A stretch of DNA of 64,000 nucleotides from Sphingomonas gilva (lineage in GTDB: Bacteria; Pseudomonadota; Alphaproteobacteria; Sphingomonadales; Sphingomonadaceae): positions 62,001 to 126,000 of the forward strand of contig NZ_QWLV01000007.1 in the NCBI RefSeq assembly GCF_003515075.1, written 5' to 3'. The position numbers were made by a program, and so were the translations under genes. Below, piece after piece: positions 30,989-37,040 of this stretch; the first letter of the stretch is position 1; each line of letters starts with the position of its first letter. The notes below the pieces were generated by a model, which was given only the letters and a program-made list of their open reading frames with translations, was not told the DNA's origin and ran no database searches.

Positions 30989-31021
30989 TGGACATCGATC
31001 TGCTACGAACATATAGCGAAC
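30989..31021 (+). promoter_or_regulatory. Promoter with LexA-type SOS box for the radical-SAM DNA repair gene
   Basis: GAAC-N7-GAAC lies at 31007-31021, which is the reverse complement of the alphaproteobacterial LexA site GTTC-N7-GTTC. It overlaps the -10 of a good promoter: TGGACA (30989-30994), a 17-bp spacer and TATAGC (31012-31017). Transcription would start at about the ATG at 31024, so the message is probably leaderless. Repression by LexA is inferred from site, position and gene function. Confidence 0.7.
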
Positions 31022-31023
31022 AT

Positions 31024-32271
31024 ATGGCGCAGCTAGACGTTCGCGAAAAGCTCGAAATCCTTGCCGATGCTGCGAAATATGACGCGTCGTGCGCCTCCTC
31101 GGGCACGGTCAAGCGCAGCTCGGTGGGCGGCAAGGGCGTCGGTTCGACCGATGGCGGGATGGGCATCTGCCATGCCTATGCGCCCGACGGACGCTGCATC
31201 AGTCTGCTCAAGATACTGCTTACCAACAGCTGCATCTTCGATTGCCATTACTGCATCAACCGCAAGAGCTCGAATGTCCGCCGCGCGCGCTTCACCGCCA
31301 AGGAGGTCGTCGATCTCACGCTCGCCTTCTACAGGCGCAACTATATCGAGGGCCTGTTCCTCTCTTCGGGGATCATCCGTTCGTCCGACTATACGATGGA
31401 GCAGATCGTCGAGGTCGCGCGGAGCCTGCGCGAGGACCATGATTTTCGCGGCTATATCCACCTCAAGACGATTCCCGACGCCGATCCCGCGCTGATCCAT
31501 CAGGCCGGGCTCCACGCCGACCGCGTGTCGATCAACGTCGAGCTGCCCACCGCGCCGGGGCTGCGGCGGCTGGCGCCCGAGAAATCGGCGGAGCGGATCG
31601 AAGGTGCGATGCGCGACATGGATGCAGCGATCGCCGACGCCGGCGAGGCGCGGGGCAAATACCCGTCCGCGCCGCGTTTCGCCCCCGCCGGCCAGTCGAC
31701 CCAGATGATCGTCGGGGCGGATGCGGCGACCGACGGCGACATCGTCCTGAAGGCGTCGAGCCTCTACGACCGTTTCGGCCTCAGGCGCGTCTATTATTCG
31801 GCTTTCTCGCCGATACCCGATGCGAGCGCCGTGCTGCCACTCAAGCGCCCGCCGCTGATGCGCGAGCACCGGCTCTACCAGTCCGATTGGCTGATGCGCT
31901 TCTACGGTTTTCAGCCCAAGGAGGTGGTCGCCGCCGCCGATGCGGACACGGGCATGCTGCCGCTCGACATCGATCCCAAGCTCGCCTGGGCATTGAAGTT
32001 CCGCGAGCGTTTCCCGATCGACGTCAATCGCGCCCCGCGCGAGATGCTGCTGCGCGTGCCCGGGCTGGGAGTGAAGGCGGTGGACGGCATCATCGCCTCG
32101 CGCCGCTGGCGGAAGCTGCGGCTGGCGGATGTGGCGCGCCTGACCGTTTCGGTCGCCAAGCTGCGGCCGTTCATCGTCGCGGCCGATTGGCGCCCGGTGG
32201 CGCTGGCCGACAAGGCCGAGCTCAAGCCGCCGGCGGCGCCGCGCCGCGAGCAGCTCGAACTGTTCGCCTGA
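31024..32271 (+). CDS. Putative DNA modification/repair radical SAM protein
   Basis: A 415-aa radical-SAM enzyme. The cluster-binding cysteines are C70-x3-C74-x2-C77 (NSCIFDCHYCINR). A C-terminal helix-hairpin-helix (about 338-360, with RVPGLGVKAVDGI) predicts DNA binding. This matches the family annotated as putative DNA modification/repair radical SAM protein, which usually sits beside a DUF4130 (SAM-linked) protein. Here that partner is the DUF4130-UdgX fusion at 35658-37040. The LexA-type box at its promoter supports a damage-response role. The reaction is not known. Confidence 0.9.
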   Translation: MAQLDVREKLEILADAAKYDASCASSGTVKRSSVGGKGVGSTDGGMGICHAYAPDGRCISLLKILLTNSCIFDCHYCINRKSSNVRRARFTAKEVVDLTLAFYRRNYIEGLFLSSGIIRSSDYTMEQIVEVARSLREDHDFRGYIHLKTIPDADPALIHQAGLHADRVSINVELPTAPGLRRLAPEKSAERIEGAMRDMDAAIADAGEARGKYPSAPRFAPAGQSTQMIVGADAATDGDIVLKASSLYDRFGLRRVYYSAFSPIPDASAVLPLKRPPLMREHRLYQSDWLMRFYGFQPKEVVAAADADTGMLPLDIDPKLAWALKFRERFPIDVNRAPREMLLRVPGLGVKAVDGIIASRRWRKLRLADVARLTVSVAKLRPFIVAADWRPVALADKAELKPPAAPRREQLELFA

Positions 32272-32323: not shown

Positions 32324-32755
32324 ATGCGCTGGCTGCCGCTTGCCGTCTGGCTGATCATCGCCGCGCCCGTCGCGGCCGAGGACGATGTGTCGCGCTACGC
32401 CGCCGGGCAGGTGTGGGAATATCGCACGCGCGCCGGCGAGGAAGGTTCGCTGCTCAAGATCCAGCAGGTCGAGCAGGCGCCGCGGGGCACGGTCTATCAC
32501 ATCAGCCTGATCGGCCTGTCGTTCGGGCGCGGCATGCCGCATGGCGGCGAGCTGGGCCATATGCCCGTCTCGCGCGAGACGCTCGACGCCAGCGTCACCC
32601 GCCTGTCCGACAGCAAGGCCGAGTTTCCCGATCCGGCCAGCGGCATCGCCGCATGGCGCGAGGCCGAGGGCGGCGTGTTCACCATTCCCGTCGCCGAGAT
32701 CGTCGAGAACATCCTGTCCATCATCGCGACCGGCGCGGTCGCCACCAAGGAGTGA
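32324..32755 (+). CDS. Secreted protein of the beta-helix/dihaem cytochrome operon
   Basis: A 143-aa protein with a signal peptide (cleavage near VAAE-D, residue about 19). The mature part begins with a YAAGQVWEYRTRAGEEG strand pattern that suggests a small beta-domain, followed by HISLIGLSFG and HMPVSRETLDASV. I do not recognise a family. GAGGAGAGAGG lies just upstream of the ATG. It is 4 bp from the beta-helix gene and likely the first member of a three-gene secreted operon. Confidence 0.65.
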   Translation: MRWLPLAVWLIIAAPVAAEDDVSRYAAGQVWEYRTRAGEEGSLLKIQQVEQAPRGTVYHISLIGLSFGRGMPHGGELGHMPVSRETLDASVTRLSDSKAEFPDPASGIAAWREAEGGVFTIPVAEIVENILSIIATGAVATKE

Positions 32756-32759
32756 AGAC

Positions 32760-33944
32760 ATGACCATGCGCTGGCTGACCCCGCTTTGCCTGATCGCCCT
32801 CGCGGGCCCGCTCGCCGCCAAGGAGATCAAGGTCGAGGCCGGCGCGAATGCGCAGGAGCGGCTGCAGGGCGCGCTGATCGAGGCGGAGCCGGGAGATGTC
32901 GTCGCGATCGGCGCCGGGCGGTTCGAGCTGACCGACGGGCTATCGCTCGACGTCGACAACGTCACGGTGCGCGGGGCTGGGCCGGGCGAGACGGTGCTGA
33001 GCTTCAAGGGGCAGCTCGGCTCCGGCGAAGGGCTGCTGGTGACGTCCGACGGCGTCACGCTGCGCGATTTCGCGGTGGAGGACACCAAGGGCGAAGGCAT
33101 CAAGTCCAAGGGCGCCGACCGCATCGTCTACAAGAATGTCCGCGTCGAATGGACCGGCGGGCCGAAGGCGACCAACGGCGCGTACGGCGTCTATCCGGTC
33201 GAAAGCAGGCAGGTGCTGGTCGACGGCGCGGTGGTGCGCGGCGCGTCCGACGCGGGCATCTATGTCGGCCAGTCGAGCGAGATCATCGTGCGCAATTCGA
33301 CCGCCGAGCGGAACGTCGCGGGGATCGAGATCGAGAACAGCCGCCGCGCCGACGTGTTCGGCAACACCGCCAGCCACAATACCGGCGGCATCCTGGTGTT
33401 CGACCTGCCCAACCTGCCGGTGATGAACGGCGGCGACGTGCGGGTGTTCAAGAACAAGGTGGTCGACAACGACACGCCCAATTTCGCGCCGCCGGGCAAC
33501 ATCGTCGCATCGGTGCGGATGGGCACGGGCGTGCTGGTGATGGCCAACGACAACGTCCACGTCTTCGACAATGACCTGTCGGGCAACGCGACCAGCAACG
33601 TGATGGTGATCGCCTATCGCCTCAAATATGACGACGCGCGCTACAACCCGCTGCCGCGCCGGATCATGGTCAGCGGCAACCGCCACGGCCGCGCGGGCTT
33701 CGCGCCGCAGCTGCCGGGCGGCGAGCAGCTGGCCGCGGCGTTCGGCGGATCGATCCCGCCGGTGCTGTGGGACGGCACCGGCAGCATGACCGTCGCAAGC
33801 GCGCCGGTGCTCAACATGAACATTGCGCAGGGAGCGGAGATGGAGACGGCCAAGCCCGCGCCCGCCGATCTCAGCAAGGGCGAGACCTACGCGCCGCCGC
33901 TCGCGGTGGTTCTGCCGGCCGAGATGGAGGCGCGCGCCAGGTGA
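32760..33944 (+). CDS. Parallel beta-helix repeat protein (periplasmic)
   Basis: A 394-aa protein with a signal peptide (cleavage near LAAK) followed by a right-handed parallel beta-helix of about 10 rungs. Repeat rungs are visible as VDNVTVRGAG, SDGVTLRDFAVEDT, ADRIVYKNVRVEW, SSEIIVRNSTAERN and SRRADVFGNTASHN. It belongs to the parallel beta-helix family that is found next to a dihaem cytochrome (SO2930/HNE_0200-like), as here. Polysaccharide lyases and epimerases share the fold, but no catalytic site is obvious. The ATG at 32760 lies 4 bp after the upstream stop; the 3' end overlaps the cytochrome gene (GTGA). Confidence 0.82.
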   Translation: MTMRWLTPLCLIALAGPLAAKEIKVEAGANAQERLQGALIEAEPGDVVAIGAGRFELTDGLSLDVDNVTVRGAGPGETVLSFKGQLGSGEGLLVTSDGVTLRDFAVEDTKGEGIKSKGADRIVYKNVRVEWTGGPKATNGAYGVYPVESRQVLVDGAVVRGASDAGIYVGQSSEIIVRNSTAERNVAGIEIENSRRADVFGNTASHNTGGILVFDLPNLPVMNGGDVRVFKNKVVDNDTPNFAPPGNIVASVRMGTGVLVMANDNVHVFDNDLSGNATSNVMVIAYRLKYDDARYNPLPRRIMVSGNRHGRAGFAPQLPGGEQLAAAFGGSIPPVLWDGTGSMTVASAPVLNMNIAQGAEMETAKPAPADLSKGETYAPPLAVVLPAEMEARAR

Positions 33945-34975
33945 GCTGGTCGGGTCGCCTTTTCCTCGTCATCGGCCTGCTCGCCGCCTCAGCGGCGGTG
34001 GCGGGCGCGGCGCGGCAGGCGGGGGTGGCCGACGCGGCGGTGACGGCGGAAGGCTATCCGGCGAAGCTCTCCGAATACGGCTTCTTCATCGATCTCGCCG
34101 AGCGGACACCCGCGGCGCGAGTGACGCCCTATCATCTCAACACGCCGCTTTTCTCCGATTACACCGAGAAGGAACGGCTGGTGTACGTCCCCGCCGGCGC
34201 GACGGCGAAATATGACGCCGAGGGGCTGTTTGAATTTCCCGTCGGCACGGCGCTGATCAAGAGCTTCGGCTATGGCCGGGGCGCGGCGTTCAAGCCGATC
34301 GAGACGCGGCTGCTGCTACACCGCGCATCGGGCTGGGTGGCCTTGCCCTATGTCTGGGACGCGGACGGCAGGGACGCGACGCTCAAGCGCGCGGGCACGC
34401 GCGTGCCGGTGAGCTTCACCGATCCCAATGGGCGCGAGCGGCGGATCAGCTATGCGGTGCCCAACCAGAACCAGTGCAAGGGCTGCCATGCGCTGGATGG
34501 CGCGATCATGCCGATCGGCCCCAAGGCGCGCAACCTCAACGACGGCGCGCAGCTTGGACAATGGCAGCGCGCCGGCATCCTCGACCGCGCGCCCGCCGAT
34601 GCGCCGCGCCTGGCGCGCTGGGACGATCCCGCTGCGCCGATCGAGGCGCGCGCCACCGCCTATCTGGAGGTCAATTGCGCGCACTGCCACAATGCGCGTG
34701 GCCCCGCGTCCAATTCGGGCCTGTTCTTTGATTGGAAGCAGACCGATCCCGTCGCGCGCGGCATCGGCAAGCGGCCGGTGGCGGCAGGGCGCGGCTCTGG
34801 CGGGCTCGATTTCAGCATCGATCCCGGCCATCCCGAACGGTCGATCCTGATCCACCGGATGAAGTCGACCGAGCCGGGCGTCGCCATGCCCGAGCTGGGC
34901 CGCGCGACCGCGCATGACGAAGGTATCGCCATGCTCAGCGAATGGATCGCGGGGATGAAAACGGCTCGCAACTGA
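33941..34975 (+). CDS. SO2930/HNE_0200-family dihaem c-type cytochrome
   Basis: A 344-aa secreted protein with a signal peptide (FLVIGLLAASAAVAGAA) and two haem c sites, CKGCH (about 179-183) and CAHCH (about 246-250). It has the family segments LSEYGFF, NTPLFSDYTEKERLVYVP and FPVGTALIKSF. It starts at GTG overlapping the beta-helix stop. Co-occurrence with the beta-helix protein is established for the family, but the electron-transfer partner and substrate are unknown. The periplasm is the expected site. Confidence 0.85.
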   Translation: MSWSGRLFLVIGLLAASAAVAGAARQAGVADAAVTAEGYPAKLSEYGFFIDLAERTPAARVTPYHLNTPLFSDYTEKERLVYVPAGATAKYDAEGLFEFPVGTALIKSFGYGRGAAFKPIETRLLLHRASGWVALPYVWDADGRDATLKRAGTRVPVSFTDPNGRERRISYAVPNQNQCKGCHALDGAIMPIGPKARNLNDGAQLGQWQRAGILDRAPADAPRLARWDDPAAPIEARATAYLEVNCAHCHNARGPASNSGLFFDWKQTDPVARGIGKRPVAAGRGSGGLDFSIDPGHPERSILIHRMKSTEPGVAMPELGRATAHDEGIAMLSEWIAGMKTARN

Positions 34976-35028
34976 AACCAGCGTGGAGGGCCGGGGTTGG
35001 ACAGGCGAACCACCCGGAGGACCCTCAA

Positions 35029-35514
35029 ATGGCCGATGCGCGCATTTTCGAAGACCTGAAGGCGGATCACGACCGCCACCGCAAGCTGCTCGCGGAGCTT
35101 GCCGGGACGTCGGAGGGCAGCCCGAACCGCCGCCGCCTGTTCGAGGCGTTCCGCGTCGAGGTGACCGCGCACGCGGCCGCCGAGGAGATGTCGCTCTACG
35201 CCACCATGCTCGCCAAGCCCGACCTGCGCGACGATGCCCAGCATTCGGTGAGCGAGCACAAGGAGATCGAGGATTTCCTGGGCGAGCTCTACGAGATGGA
35301 CATGGCGTCGTCCGCCTGGACCGAGAAGTTCGCGGCGATGCGCCACCGCTACGAGCATCATATCGACGAGGAGGAGGAAGAGATGTTCCCCGCCGCGGCC
35401 GAGGGGCTGGACGAGGCGGAGGTCAAGCGGCTGGCGGCCGTGTTCGAGGCGCGCAAGCCCCAAGAGAAGCAACGGGCGAGGGAGGAGCCGCCCGAAGGCG
35501 AAAAGCGGGAGTGA
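35029..35514 (+). CDS. Hemerythrin-domain protein
   Basis: A 161-aa four-helix protein. Iron-ligand histidines and acids are in the expected places: DHDRHRKLL (about 13-21), TAHAAAEE (about 45-52), SEHKEIEDFL (about 73-82) and HRYEHHIDEEEEEMFP (about 103-118). Di-iron hemerythrin domains bind oxygen or NO or sense redox state. A charged low-complexity tail follows. CGGAGGA precedes the ATG at 35029. The neighbouring dihaem cytochrome suggests but does not show a shared redox context. Confidence 0.85.
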   Translation: MADARIFEDLKADHDRHRKLLAELAGTSEGSPNRRRLFEAFRVEVTAHAAAEEMSLYATMLAKPDLRDDAQHSVSEHKEIEDFLGELYEMDMASSAWTEKFAAMRHRYEHHIDEEEEEMFPAAAEGLDEAEVKRLAAVFEARKPQEKQRAREEPPEGEKRE

Positions 35515-35538
35515 ACCTTCGAGAGAGGGTAGAGTCAT

Positions 35539-35629
35539 CGTCGCCCCTGCGAAGGCAGGGGCCGCAGGCGGCATATGCGAGGCCGGATGTGCCACAAACC
35601 CAGCGGCCCCTGCCTTCGCAGGGGCGACG
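35539..35629 (+). repeat. Palindromic intergenic repeat, family B, copy 1
   Basis: CGTCGCCCCTGCGAAGGCAG at the left end is mirrored by the complement at the right end (GGGGCGACG at 35621-35629). The centre (about 40 bp) is unique except for a shared CACAAACCC. The same element is at 37042-37133, on the other side of the udgX gene. It is non-coding. Confidence 0.85.
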
Positions 35630-35657
35630 GAATAAGGGGGCCAAAGTTGAGGCCTGA

Positions 35658-37040
35658 ATGCACCTCATAACCCTCGCCGCGCCCGATGACTTCGATGGCT
35701 GGCGTGCCGCCGCTCGGGCATTGGCGCTGGCCGATGTACCGCCCGATCAGGTCGTATGGCAGGTCGCAGGAGAGGCCGGCGATCTGTTCGGCGGCGAGCC
35801 TCCACCATCCGCGCCGCCGGGCGCCGCGTTCAACGTGCCGCGTCCGTTCATCGCGCTCGCCCAATCGGCGATCCTCCACGCCGACGCCGAGCGTTTCGCC
35901 CGCCTCTACGCGCTGCTGCTGCGCGTTCGCGCGCAGCCGGGCGCGATGGAGGACCGCGCCGATCCCGATCTGCGCCGGCTGGAGGCGATGGCGGGCGAGG
36001 TCCGCCGCGACATCCACAAGATGCGCGCCTTCGTCCGCTTCCGCGCGGTCGAGGATGCGGAGGGCGAGCGCTATGTCGCCTGGTTCGAGCCTGCGCATCA
36101 CATCGTCCGCGCCAATGCCGGCTTCTTCGTCGAACGCTTCGCCAACATGCGCTGGTCGATCCTGACGCCCGAGCTGTCGCTCCATTGGGACGGCGAGACG
36201 CTCGCCGAAGGCCCGCCCGCCGCCAAGGCCGATGCGCCGGAGGGCGATCCGGTCGAAGCGGTGTGGAAGACCTATTATGCCTCGATCTTCAATCCCGCGC
36301 GTTTGAAGACCGGTGCGATGCTGAAGGAGATGCCGCGCAGATACTGGAAGAACATGCCCGAAACCGCGCTGGTGCCGGGGCTGATAGCCGGAGCGCAGGC
36401 GCGCGAGGCCGGAATGATCGAGAAGGCGAGGGTGAGGATGGGCGGCAACAGCAAACAAGCGTGGGAGGCGCTGCGCGAGGAGGCGATGGGCTGCACGCGC
36501 TGCCACCTCTACAAGCATGCGACGCAGACGGTGTTCGGCGAGGGCCGGGTCGATGCGCCGATGGTGCTGGTCGGCGAGCAGCCCGGCGACCAGGAGGATC
36601 TGGCCGGGCGGCCCTTCGTCGGTCCGGCGGGCAAGGTGCTCGACGATGCGCTCGCCGCCGCCGGGATCGACCGCGTCAGGACCTACGTCACCAACGCGGT
36701 CAAGCATTTCAAGTTCGAGCAGCGCGGCAAGCGCCGCATCCACTCCAAGCCCGACGCGGGCGAGATCGAGGCGTGCCGCTGGTGGTGGGACCAGGAACGC
36801 GCGCTGCTGAAGCCCGACGTGACCGTGGCGCTGGGCGCCACCGCCGCGCGGTCGCTGTTCGGCAAGGTGATGACGATCAGCCGCGAGCGCGGGCGGGTGC
36901 TCGAACTGCCCGGCGGCGGCGCGGCGTTCATCACGGTGCATCCGAGCTATCTGCTGCGGATGCCCGACCGCGACCGCGCGGAGGAGGAACGCGCGCGGTT
37001 CGTCGAGGATCTGAAGCTGGCGAAGAAGGCGCTCACCTGA
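35658..37040 (+). CDS. udgX: DUF4130 - UdgX uracil-DNA glycosylase fusion
   Basis: A 460-aa protein. Residues 1 to about 240 match the SAM-linked DUF4130 domain (DDFDGWRAAARALA, later ETALVPGLIAG nearby). Residues about 270-460 form a UDG superfamily domain with GEQPGDQEDLAGRPFVGPAG (306-325) and the UdgX hallmark loop KRRIH at 358-362, with His362 as the residue that attacks C1' and links covalently to DNA in UdgX. Fe-S cysteines at 279, 282 and 373 are present. The NAVK-H segment has no Cys where family 4 UDGs have one. Its partner radical-SAM gene is 3.4 kb upstream. Family-B repeats flank it. Confidence 0.92.
   Translation: MHLITLAAPDDFDGWRAAARALALADVPPDQVVWQVAGEAGDLFGGEPPPSAPPGAAFNVPRPFIALAQSAILHADAERFARLYALLLRVRAQPGAMEDRADPDLRRLEAMAGEVRRDIHKMRAFVRFRAVEDAEGERYVAWFEPAHHIVRANAGFFVERFANMRWSILTPELSLHWDGETLAEGPPAAKADAPEGDPVEAVWKTYYASIFNPARLKTGAMLKEMPRRYWKNMPETALVPGLIAGAQAREAGMIEKARVRMGGNSKQAWEALREEAMGCTRCHLYKHATQTVFGEGRVDAPMVLVGEQPGDQEDLAGRPFVGPAGKVLDDALAAAGIDRVRTYVTNAVKHFKFEQRGKRRIHSKPDAGEIEACRWWWDQERALLKPDVTVALGATAARSLFGKVMTISRERGRVLELPGGGAAFITVHPSYLLRMPDRDRAEEERARFVEDLKLAKKALT

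Follow-up and report, generated by a model that had tools for sequence, protein, structure and literature searches.

A predicted LexA operator on the promoter of a UdgX-linked radical-SAM gene in Sphingomonas gilva

Which regulator controls the radical-SAM gene that begins just behind a GAAC direct repeat in Sphingomonas gilva, and does this control extend to the UdgX-type gene encoded further along the same strand? The locus was analysed within a stretch of 64,000 nucleotides (the window). The repeat, GAACATATAGCGAAC, is an exact GAAC-N7-GAAC (8 of 8 bases) at positions 31007–31021 of the forward strand, and its end lies 2 bp upstream of the ATG of the radical-SAM (rSAM) gene at 31024. It overlies the −10 element of a promoter in which TGGACA (30989–30994) and TATAGC (31012–31017) are separated by a spacer of 17 bp. 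These coordinates agree with the first-pass annotation, made from the sequence, which had described a GAAC-N7-GAAC overlapping the −10 of this promoter just upstream of the ATG. A generic sigma-70 scan, however, called no promoters, this one included, because TATAGC lacks the final T. The generic scan also returned two terminator-like sites, both on the opposite strand, with 3.2 expected. The promoter assignment rests on conserved columns, namely the TA at box +5 and +6 in the −10 element and the G at box −16 in the −35 element, which are identical in all 30 aligned loci of the genus. The features of the locus are collected in Table 1.

Table 1. Features of the rSAM–UdgX locus, in coordinates of the window
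Feature	Position	Strand	Basis or remark
−35 element TGGACA	30989–30994	+	T-N-GAC-type hexamer at box −18 in 21/30 genus loci
LexA operator GAAC-N7-GAAC, GAACATATAGCGAAC (predicted)	31007–31021	+	Exact match and conservation
−10 element TATAGC, within the operator	31012–31017	+	TA invariant in 30/30 genus loci
Radical-SAM protein TIGR03916 (rSAM_link_UDG), 415 aa, C-terminal helix-hairpin-helix-like stretch	31024–32271	+	555 bits against a cut-off of 343.5
Three genes after rSAM: 143-aa protein without family, TIGR03805 beta-helix protein, TIGR03806 diheme cytochrome c	32324–34975	+	
Hemerythrin (HHE) protein	35029–35514	+	Relative lies between rSAM and UdgX in related loci
REP-like palindrome with 24-bp perfect arms, between the HHE and UdgX genes	35539–35629	.	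242 half-site matches genome-wide (≤2 mismatches)
DUF4130 (TIGR03915) fused to UdgX (TIGR03914); GEQPG, KRRIH, HPSYLLR	35658–37040	+	Profile matches and motifs; no LexA box of its own

A single site of this kind is at chance level in 64 kb, and the significance of the box stems from its conservation. The window contains one exact GAAC-N7-GAAC where 1.17 are expected, and at least one match was obtained in 73 of 100 shuffles. Across the whole genome (3.54 Mb), 89 exact boxes were found, compared with 41 matches to the reversed pattern, and roughly half of the 89 may be noise. Exact boxes precede both lexA and recA of the same genome, the two genes at which the first-pass annotation had proposed to look for it. 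Others precede genes matching UvrA, RuvA, the ribonucleotide reductase alpha subunit (nrdA), a Pol IV-like protein and a PA0069-family radical-SAM protein, and further ones lie before RarA-like and RadA-like ATPases and an HhH-GPD glycosylase; among these matches, RuvA and the PA0069-family gene score above curated cut-offs, and UvrA, NrdA, RadA and the RarA-like and Pol IV-like proteins score below them, several being cut by stretch ends or being relatives only. Of 26 fetched LexA loci from relatives (L153–L178), 23 have a box no more than about 360 bp away from the lexA match; L176–L178 have no exact box near lexA, though their rSAM genes have one. On a matrix derived from 11 SOS-type boxes, one of which belongs to a gene (L122) judged imuA-like by eye only, the rSAM box scores 17.3, with a leave-one-out range for the 11 of 13.9–24.1, and ranks 26th among the 89 exact boxes of the genome. 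The identification of L122 as imuA was set aside, with no family assigned from NCBIfam or Pfam; the box of this 267-aa gene (L122, 1068–1082) has a spacing of 17 to the ATG, as at the rSAM gene.

The first-pass annotation had also proposed to look for the box upstream of homologous rSAM genes, and it recurs there exactly in 32 of 32 genus genomes that have the gene, 26 of 29 genomes of the class Alphaproteobacteria and 77 of 80 loci of a named set; the three sets overlap and cannot be counted as independent samples (the own genome and G010 recur in the class set, and the contigs of L188, L189, L192 and L193 are as long as those of L036, L040, L039 and L047). The search within genus and order covered 61 genomes, the own one included, of which 33 have the rSAM gene and 28 do not; within the genus it is present in 32 of 37. 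In all 32 the box lies directly upstream of the start (all 30 fetched loci, plus G023 and G006). The remaining genome with the gene (G038) belongs to another family of the same order; LexA is present, and its rSAM gene is preceded by AAAC-N7-GAAC, which deviates by one mismatch. Over the 30 aligned genus loci, the eight box bases have a mean pairwise identity of 1.00 and the spacer one of 0.63; the value is 0.35 at positions −40 to −1 and 0.28 at positions −100 to −41. The standout columns of the −35 element at −18, −16 and −14 have identities of 0.87, 1.00 and 0.93, and the TA of the −10 element reaches 1.00. A composite pattern of box, ATG and first codons matched once each in 44 of 61 genus genomes, a set that includes genomes without the rSAM gene, and its reversed control in none of the 61; four genomes with gene and box were missed by the pattern (G003, G022, G023 and G028).

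Of 387 genomes of the class, 29 have a TIGR03916 match above the cut-off, the own genome and G010 included (14 of 43 genomes, with matches under the cut-off, were left out). The three in which the exact box is missing are G444, G225 and G433. LexA exceeds its family cut-off in 26 of the 29 genomes scored for it (the other 28 of the class and G038), is present in the own genome, and is without a match over the cut-off in the same three, G444 and G225 having LexA relatives under it. All 26 class genomes in which LexA scores above the cut-off have the box, and none of the other three does, a coincidence with a chance of 1/3654 if the genomes were independent; they are not fully so, since two of the three share a family. 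The named set, which comprises the best 80 of more than 580 relatives and leans to close ones, covers Sphingomonas, Novosphingobium, Erythrobacter relatives, Brevundimonas, Bosea, Rhizobium, Mesorhizobium and others. Its 77 exact boxes fall in the same 150-bp interval, and 16 boxes occur elsewhere in 467 kb of those stretches; among the misses, L222 has one mismatch, and L257, titled an uncultured Luteibacter MAG, and L259 have no exact box. The same spacing of rSAM gene, box and ATG also occurs on a 12.6-kb contig of a viral collection (L152, box at 1984–1998), which is probably bacterial DNA.

Outside the class the operator changes. Of 397 genomes searched across the phylum, 103 exceed the TIGR03916 cut-off (14 of 117, with matches under the cut-off, were left out), and the 35 of them that lie outside the class were scored for boxes. 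Judged from their LexA site, these 35 are taken as gammaproteobacteria in the GTDB sense. The palindrome CTGT-N8-ACAG, which we take to be the gammaproteobacterial LexA site, is present exactly in 25 of the 35, starting 21–65 bp before the first matched base, and with one mismatch in five more, which count for less because such matches are fairly common by chance (estimated at about 0.13 per locus in 340 bp). GAAC-N7-GAAC was found at the rSAM gene in none of the 35, and the alphaproteobacterial sets, 139 loci in all, contain no CTGT-N8-ACAG (one of these loci, L257, is titled Luteibacter). Among the lexA loci of five of the 35 (L322–L326), an exact CTGT-N8-ACAG lies near lexA in three and is absent from L323 and L325. 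The five genomes without any CTGT-N8-ACAG match comprise G506 and G707, without LexA over the cut-off, and G523, G660 and G738, which have it and belong to one genus. In these last three, lexA is preceded just before its start by TTAGTAGTAATACTACTAA, presumably the Xanthomonas-type LexA site, and neither TTAGTAGTAATACTACTAA nor another recognised site was found at the rSAM gene; the genus is a real exception to the rule that a LexA site accompanies the rSAM gene. In the same genus (L292, L304 and L315, with lexA loci L327–L329), a palindrome, GGTCTCATCCAATGAGACC, stands before the rSAM gene in L292 and L315, and nearly so in L304. The swap of operators between classes provides comparative evidence that SOS control of the module is selected rather than incidental.

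The distance between box and start codon differs among lineages. In 28 of 30 genus loci the first in-frame start codon lies at box +17; among loci with a box, the same holds for 43 of 77 in the named set and for seven of 26 in the class set. Transcription is predicted to start at box +17 because this is the standard spacing from the −10 element, and the frequency of a start codon there, high in the genus and lower elsewhere, makes a leaderless mRNA starting at the rSAM ATG likely in sphingomonads and not in all lineages.

We consider it highly probable that the sequence at 31007–31021 is a LexA operator on the −10 element of the rSAM promoter, at which repression by LexA would be relieved by DNA damage. 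The first-pass annotation had called the repeat the alphaproteobacterial LexA site and the rSAM gene a candidate SOS gene on its account, and both gain support from the conservation of the box, the boxes at lexA and recA, the joint absence of box and LexA and the replacement of the operator outside the class. In the SOS response, LexA repression ends by cleavage of LexA. Bound at this site, LexA would cover the −10 element and block RNA polymerase, and this occlusion points most naturally to a repression that LexA cleavage would relieve. RecA on single-stranded DNA would promote LexA self-cleavage and thereby derepression of the rSAM gene, whose transcript would probably be leaderless and start at the ATG. 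The product of the gene belongs to the repair module of rSAM and DUF4130(-UdgX) proteins.

Three other accounts of the repeat were weighed against LexA control. That the match is an accidental direct repeat, passively inherited, would be in keeping with the expectation of one exact match per 64 kb and with a background that may make up about half of the exact matches in the genome. Its probability is nevertheless close to nil, since none of the eight bases varies among 30 genus loci with nearly random flanks, and since the box keeps to one 150-bp interval throughout the 77 named loci. A second account is constraint from the promoter and the start site: the conserved bases might mainly serve the −10 and a leaderless start, LexA binding being incidental, and the TA within the box, the −35 columns, invariant or nearly so, and the start at box +17 in most genus loci all fit this account. 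The GAAC arms, however, are not promoter elements, other lineages keep the box while their first in-frame start ranges from +19 to +108, and some loci have it in the GTTC orientation; we regard a mere promoter constraint as extremely improbable.

On the third account the site is real but read by another regulator, an S24-family protein other than LexA or an unrelated factor. Additional S24 relatives are present in several genomes, and the assignment of the site to LexA comes from sequence comparison. Yet the identical motif heads lexA and recA, it is missing from the three genomes of the class in which no LexA scores above the cut-off, and in another class a LexA site takes its place, which together make a different regulator very unlikely. 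For LexA itself, we infer binding and repression at 31007–31021 and induction by DNA damage.

The rSAM protein belongs to TIGR03916, which we take to be equivalent to COG4277 and to be defined by pairing with a TIGR03915/TIGR03914 protein; such a protein is encoded here at 35658–37040, and 127 of 139 related loci have a DUF4130(-UdgX) partner within reach. A sequence search of the PDB with the rSAM protein gave weak matches only (best E of 0.02), to ComEA/RuvA-like proteins for the C-terminal part and to short radical-SAM stretches. The structure was predicted with a mean pLDDT of 71.4 and a pTM of 0.71, and a Foldseek comparison of this model with the PDB gave no match at E ≤ 0.001, the best rows being MiaB at 1.0e-03; therefore no substrate can be inferred. 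With SOS control, a radical-SAM family of obscure chemistry would gain a defined trigger, and its function could be tested by asking which damage requires it once SOS is on.

The UDG domain encoded at 35658–37040 aligns with solved UdgX chains, of which 6ajo and its like are presumably Mycobacterium smegmatis UdgX, and it retains motif A (GEQPG), the KRRIH loop and the HPS of motif B. The aligned domain, GEQPG and KRRIH are common to the protein described here and that of M. smegmatis, whereas the fusion to DUF4130 and the lack of a LexA box of its own are features of the gene described here. The hallmarks of UdgX given in the text available from PMC10359453 are the GEQPG motif A, the KRRIH loop with its cross-linking histidine and the HPS motif B, and the product of 35658–37040 has these motifs, as expected of a putative cross-linking UDG.

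In most relatives the DUF4130(-UdgX) gene directly follows the rSAM gene: of the 127 loci with a partner in reach, 89 have it no more than 120 bp away. The two genes in the window are 3,386 bp apart with four genes between them and do not form an adjacent two-gene rSAM–UdgX operon. The beta-helix and diheme cytochrome genes look unrelated; a relative of the beta-helix gene also follows the rSAM gene in L048 and L058. No LexA box, exact or with one mismatch, was found at the UdgX gene from 34187 to 35834. With no box of its own and a place behind four genes and the palindrome, the SOS control of UdgX here would depend on read-through from the rSAM promoter, which is possible in this genome. The earlier suggestion that UdgX shares the control of the rSAM gene is not supported here, given the missing box and the four genes and strong palindrome in between. 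A copy of the REP-like palindrome also lies just 3′ of lexA (C1:83408–83495). A gap of at least 120 bp separates the two genes in 38 related loci, of which only L047 and L193, taken as the same species, have a box at UdgX; in this species, Sphingomonas hominis, the separated UdgX gene has its own exact box (L047, 3546–3560) 22 bp before the start.

The partner protein varies in its composition. Of 102 partners read to the stop codon, 16 are without GEQPG, among them 14 of 261–325 aa, about the size of DUF4130 alone, one of 478 aa and one 7-aa misread; the UDG part of the partner thus appears to be optional. Eleven of the 30 genus loci have a hemerythrin gene behind the rSAM gene and ahead of UdgX (L037, L039, L042, L044, L052–L056, L058 and L060, with UdgX out of reach in L058). 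The same arrangement occurs in one class locus of 29 (G010) and in 11 of the 80 loci of the named set, and no hemerythrin gene was found at any other place in the fetched stretches. It is a candidate third member of the SOS operon. On a joint reading, which we put forward tentatively and hold to be rather less probable than its negation, rSAM and DUF4130 would be a core SOS pair of Proteobacteria that stayed under LexA while its operator changed from GAAC-N7-GAAC to CTGT-N8-ACAG. The UDG domain would be optional, and the pair would act on SOS-time lesions beyond uracil, for example by resolving or rewriting sites captured covalently by UdgX, with a hemerythrin-like third operon member gained in part of Sphingomonas.

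An SOS link of this gene pair is already known. In the text available from PMC8565304, SOS control is inferred for a COG1573–COG4277 (UDG / rSAM) operon in Bacteroidetes, and Verrucomicrobia and Alphaproteobacteria (the Caulobacter SOS regulon) are cited for the UDG-based system. The pair described here is the same by COG number, is LexA-controlled there and is predicted to be under SOS control here; compared with the operon as presented in that text, rSAM comes first in S. gilva, GAAC-N7-GAAC lies on the −10 element and UdgX is 3.4 kb off behind four genes. The same source quotes GTTC-N7-GTTC as the alphaproteobacterial LexA site. As far as that text describes the alphaproteobacterial LexA regulon, the operator sequence, the overlap with the promoter and the presence at the own lexA and recA are the same, and no essential difference is seen; the spacing of 17 from operator to ATG suggests a leaderless transcript here. 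DUF4130 is linked with SplB-like radical-SAM proteins and UDGs in the text available from PMC3765255. The part of PMC10359453 considered describes the physiological role of UdgX as largely unknown and proposes that its DNA adducts are resolved by RecA-dependent pathways; joint SOS control, where present, would give a reason for this link of UdgX to RecA.

The titles and abstract openings of open-licence literature contained no treatment of this gene pair in Sphingomonas, and among the matches listed for COG4277, only PMC8565304 was found. Against this background, the Sphingomonas rSAM gene would be a well-supported further case, and the operator change, the joint absence of box and LexA and the hemerythrin member are additions beyond prior reports, as far as the open-licence literature listings show. 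A further parallel is offered by SplB, an SOS gene in the available text of PMC8565304, and by genes of the PA0069 type, which likewise encode radical-SAM proteins under a LexA-type box. TIGR03916 differs from these as a family of its own, with an HhH-like part at the C-terminus and DUF4130/UdgX as its partner. The own genome has such a boxed PA0069-family gene, a second radical-SAM gene (L129, 1–1014, on contig C13), whose box, GTTCTTGATATGTTC, starts 39 bp before the start codon.
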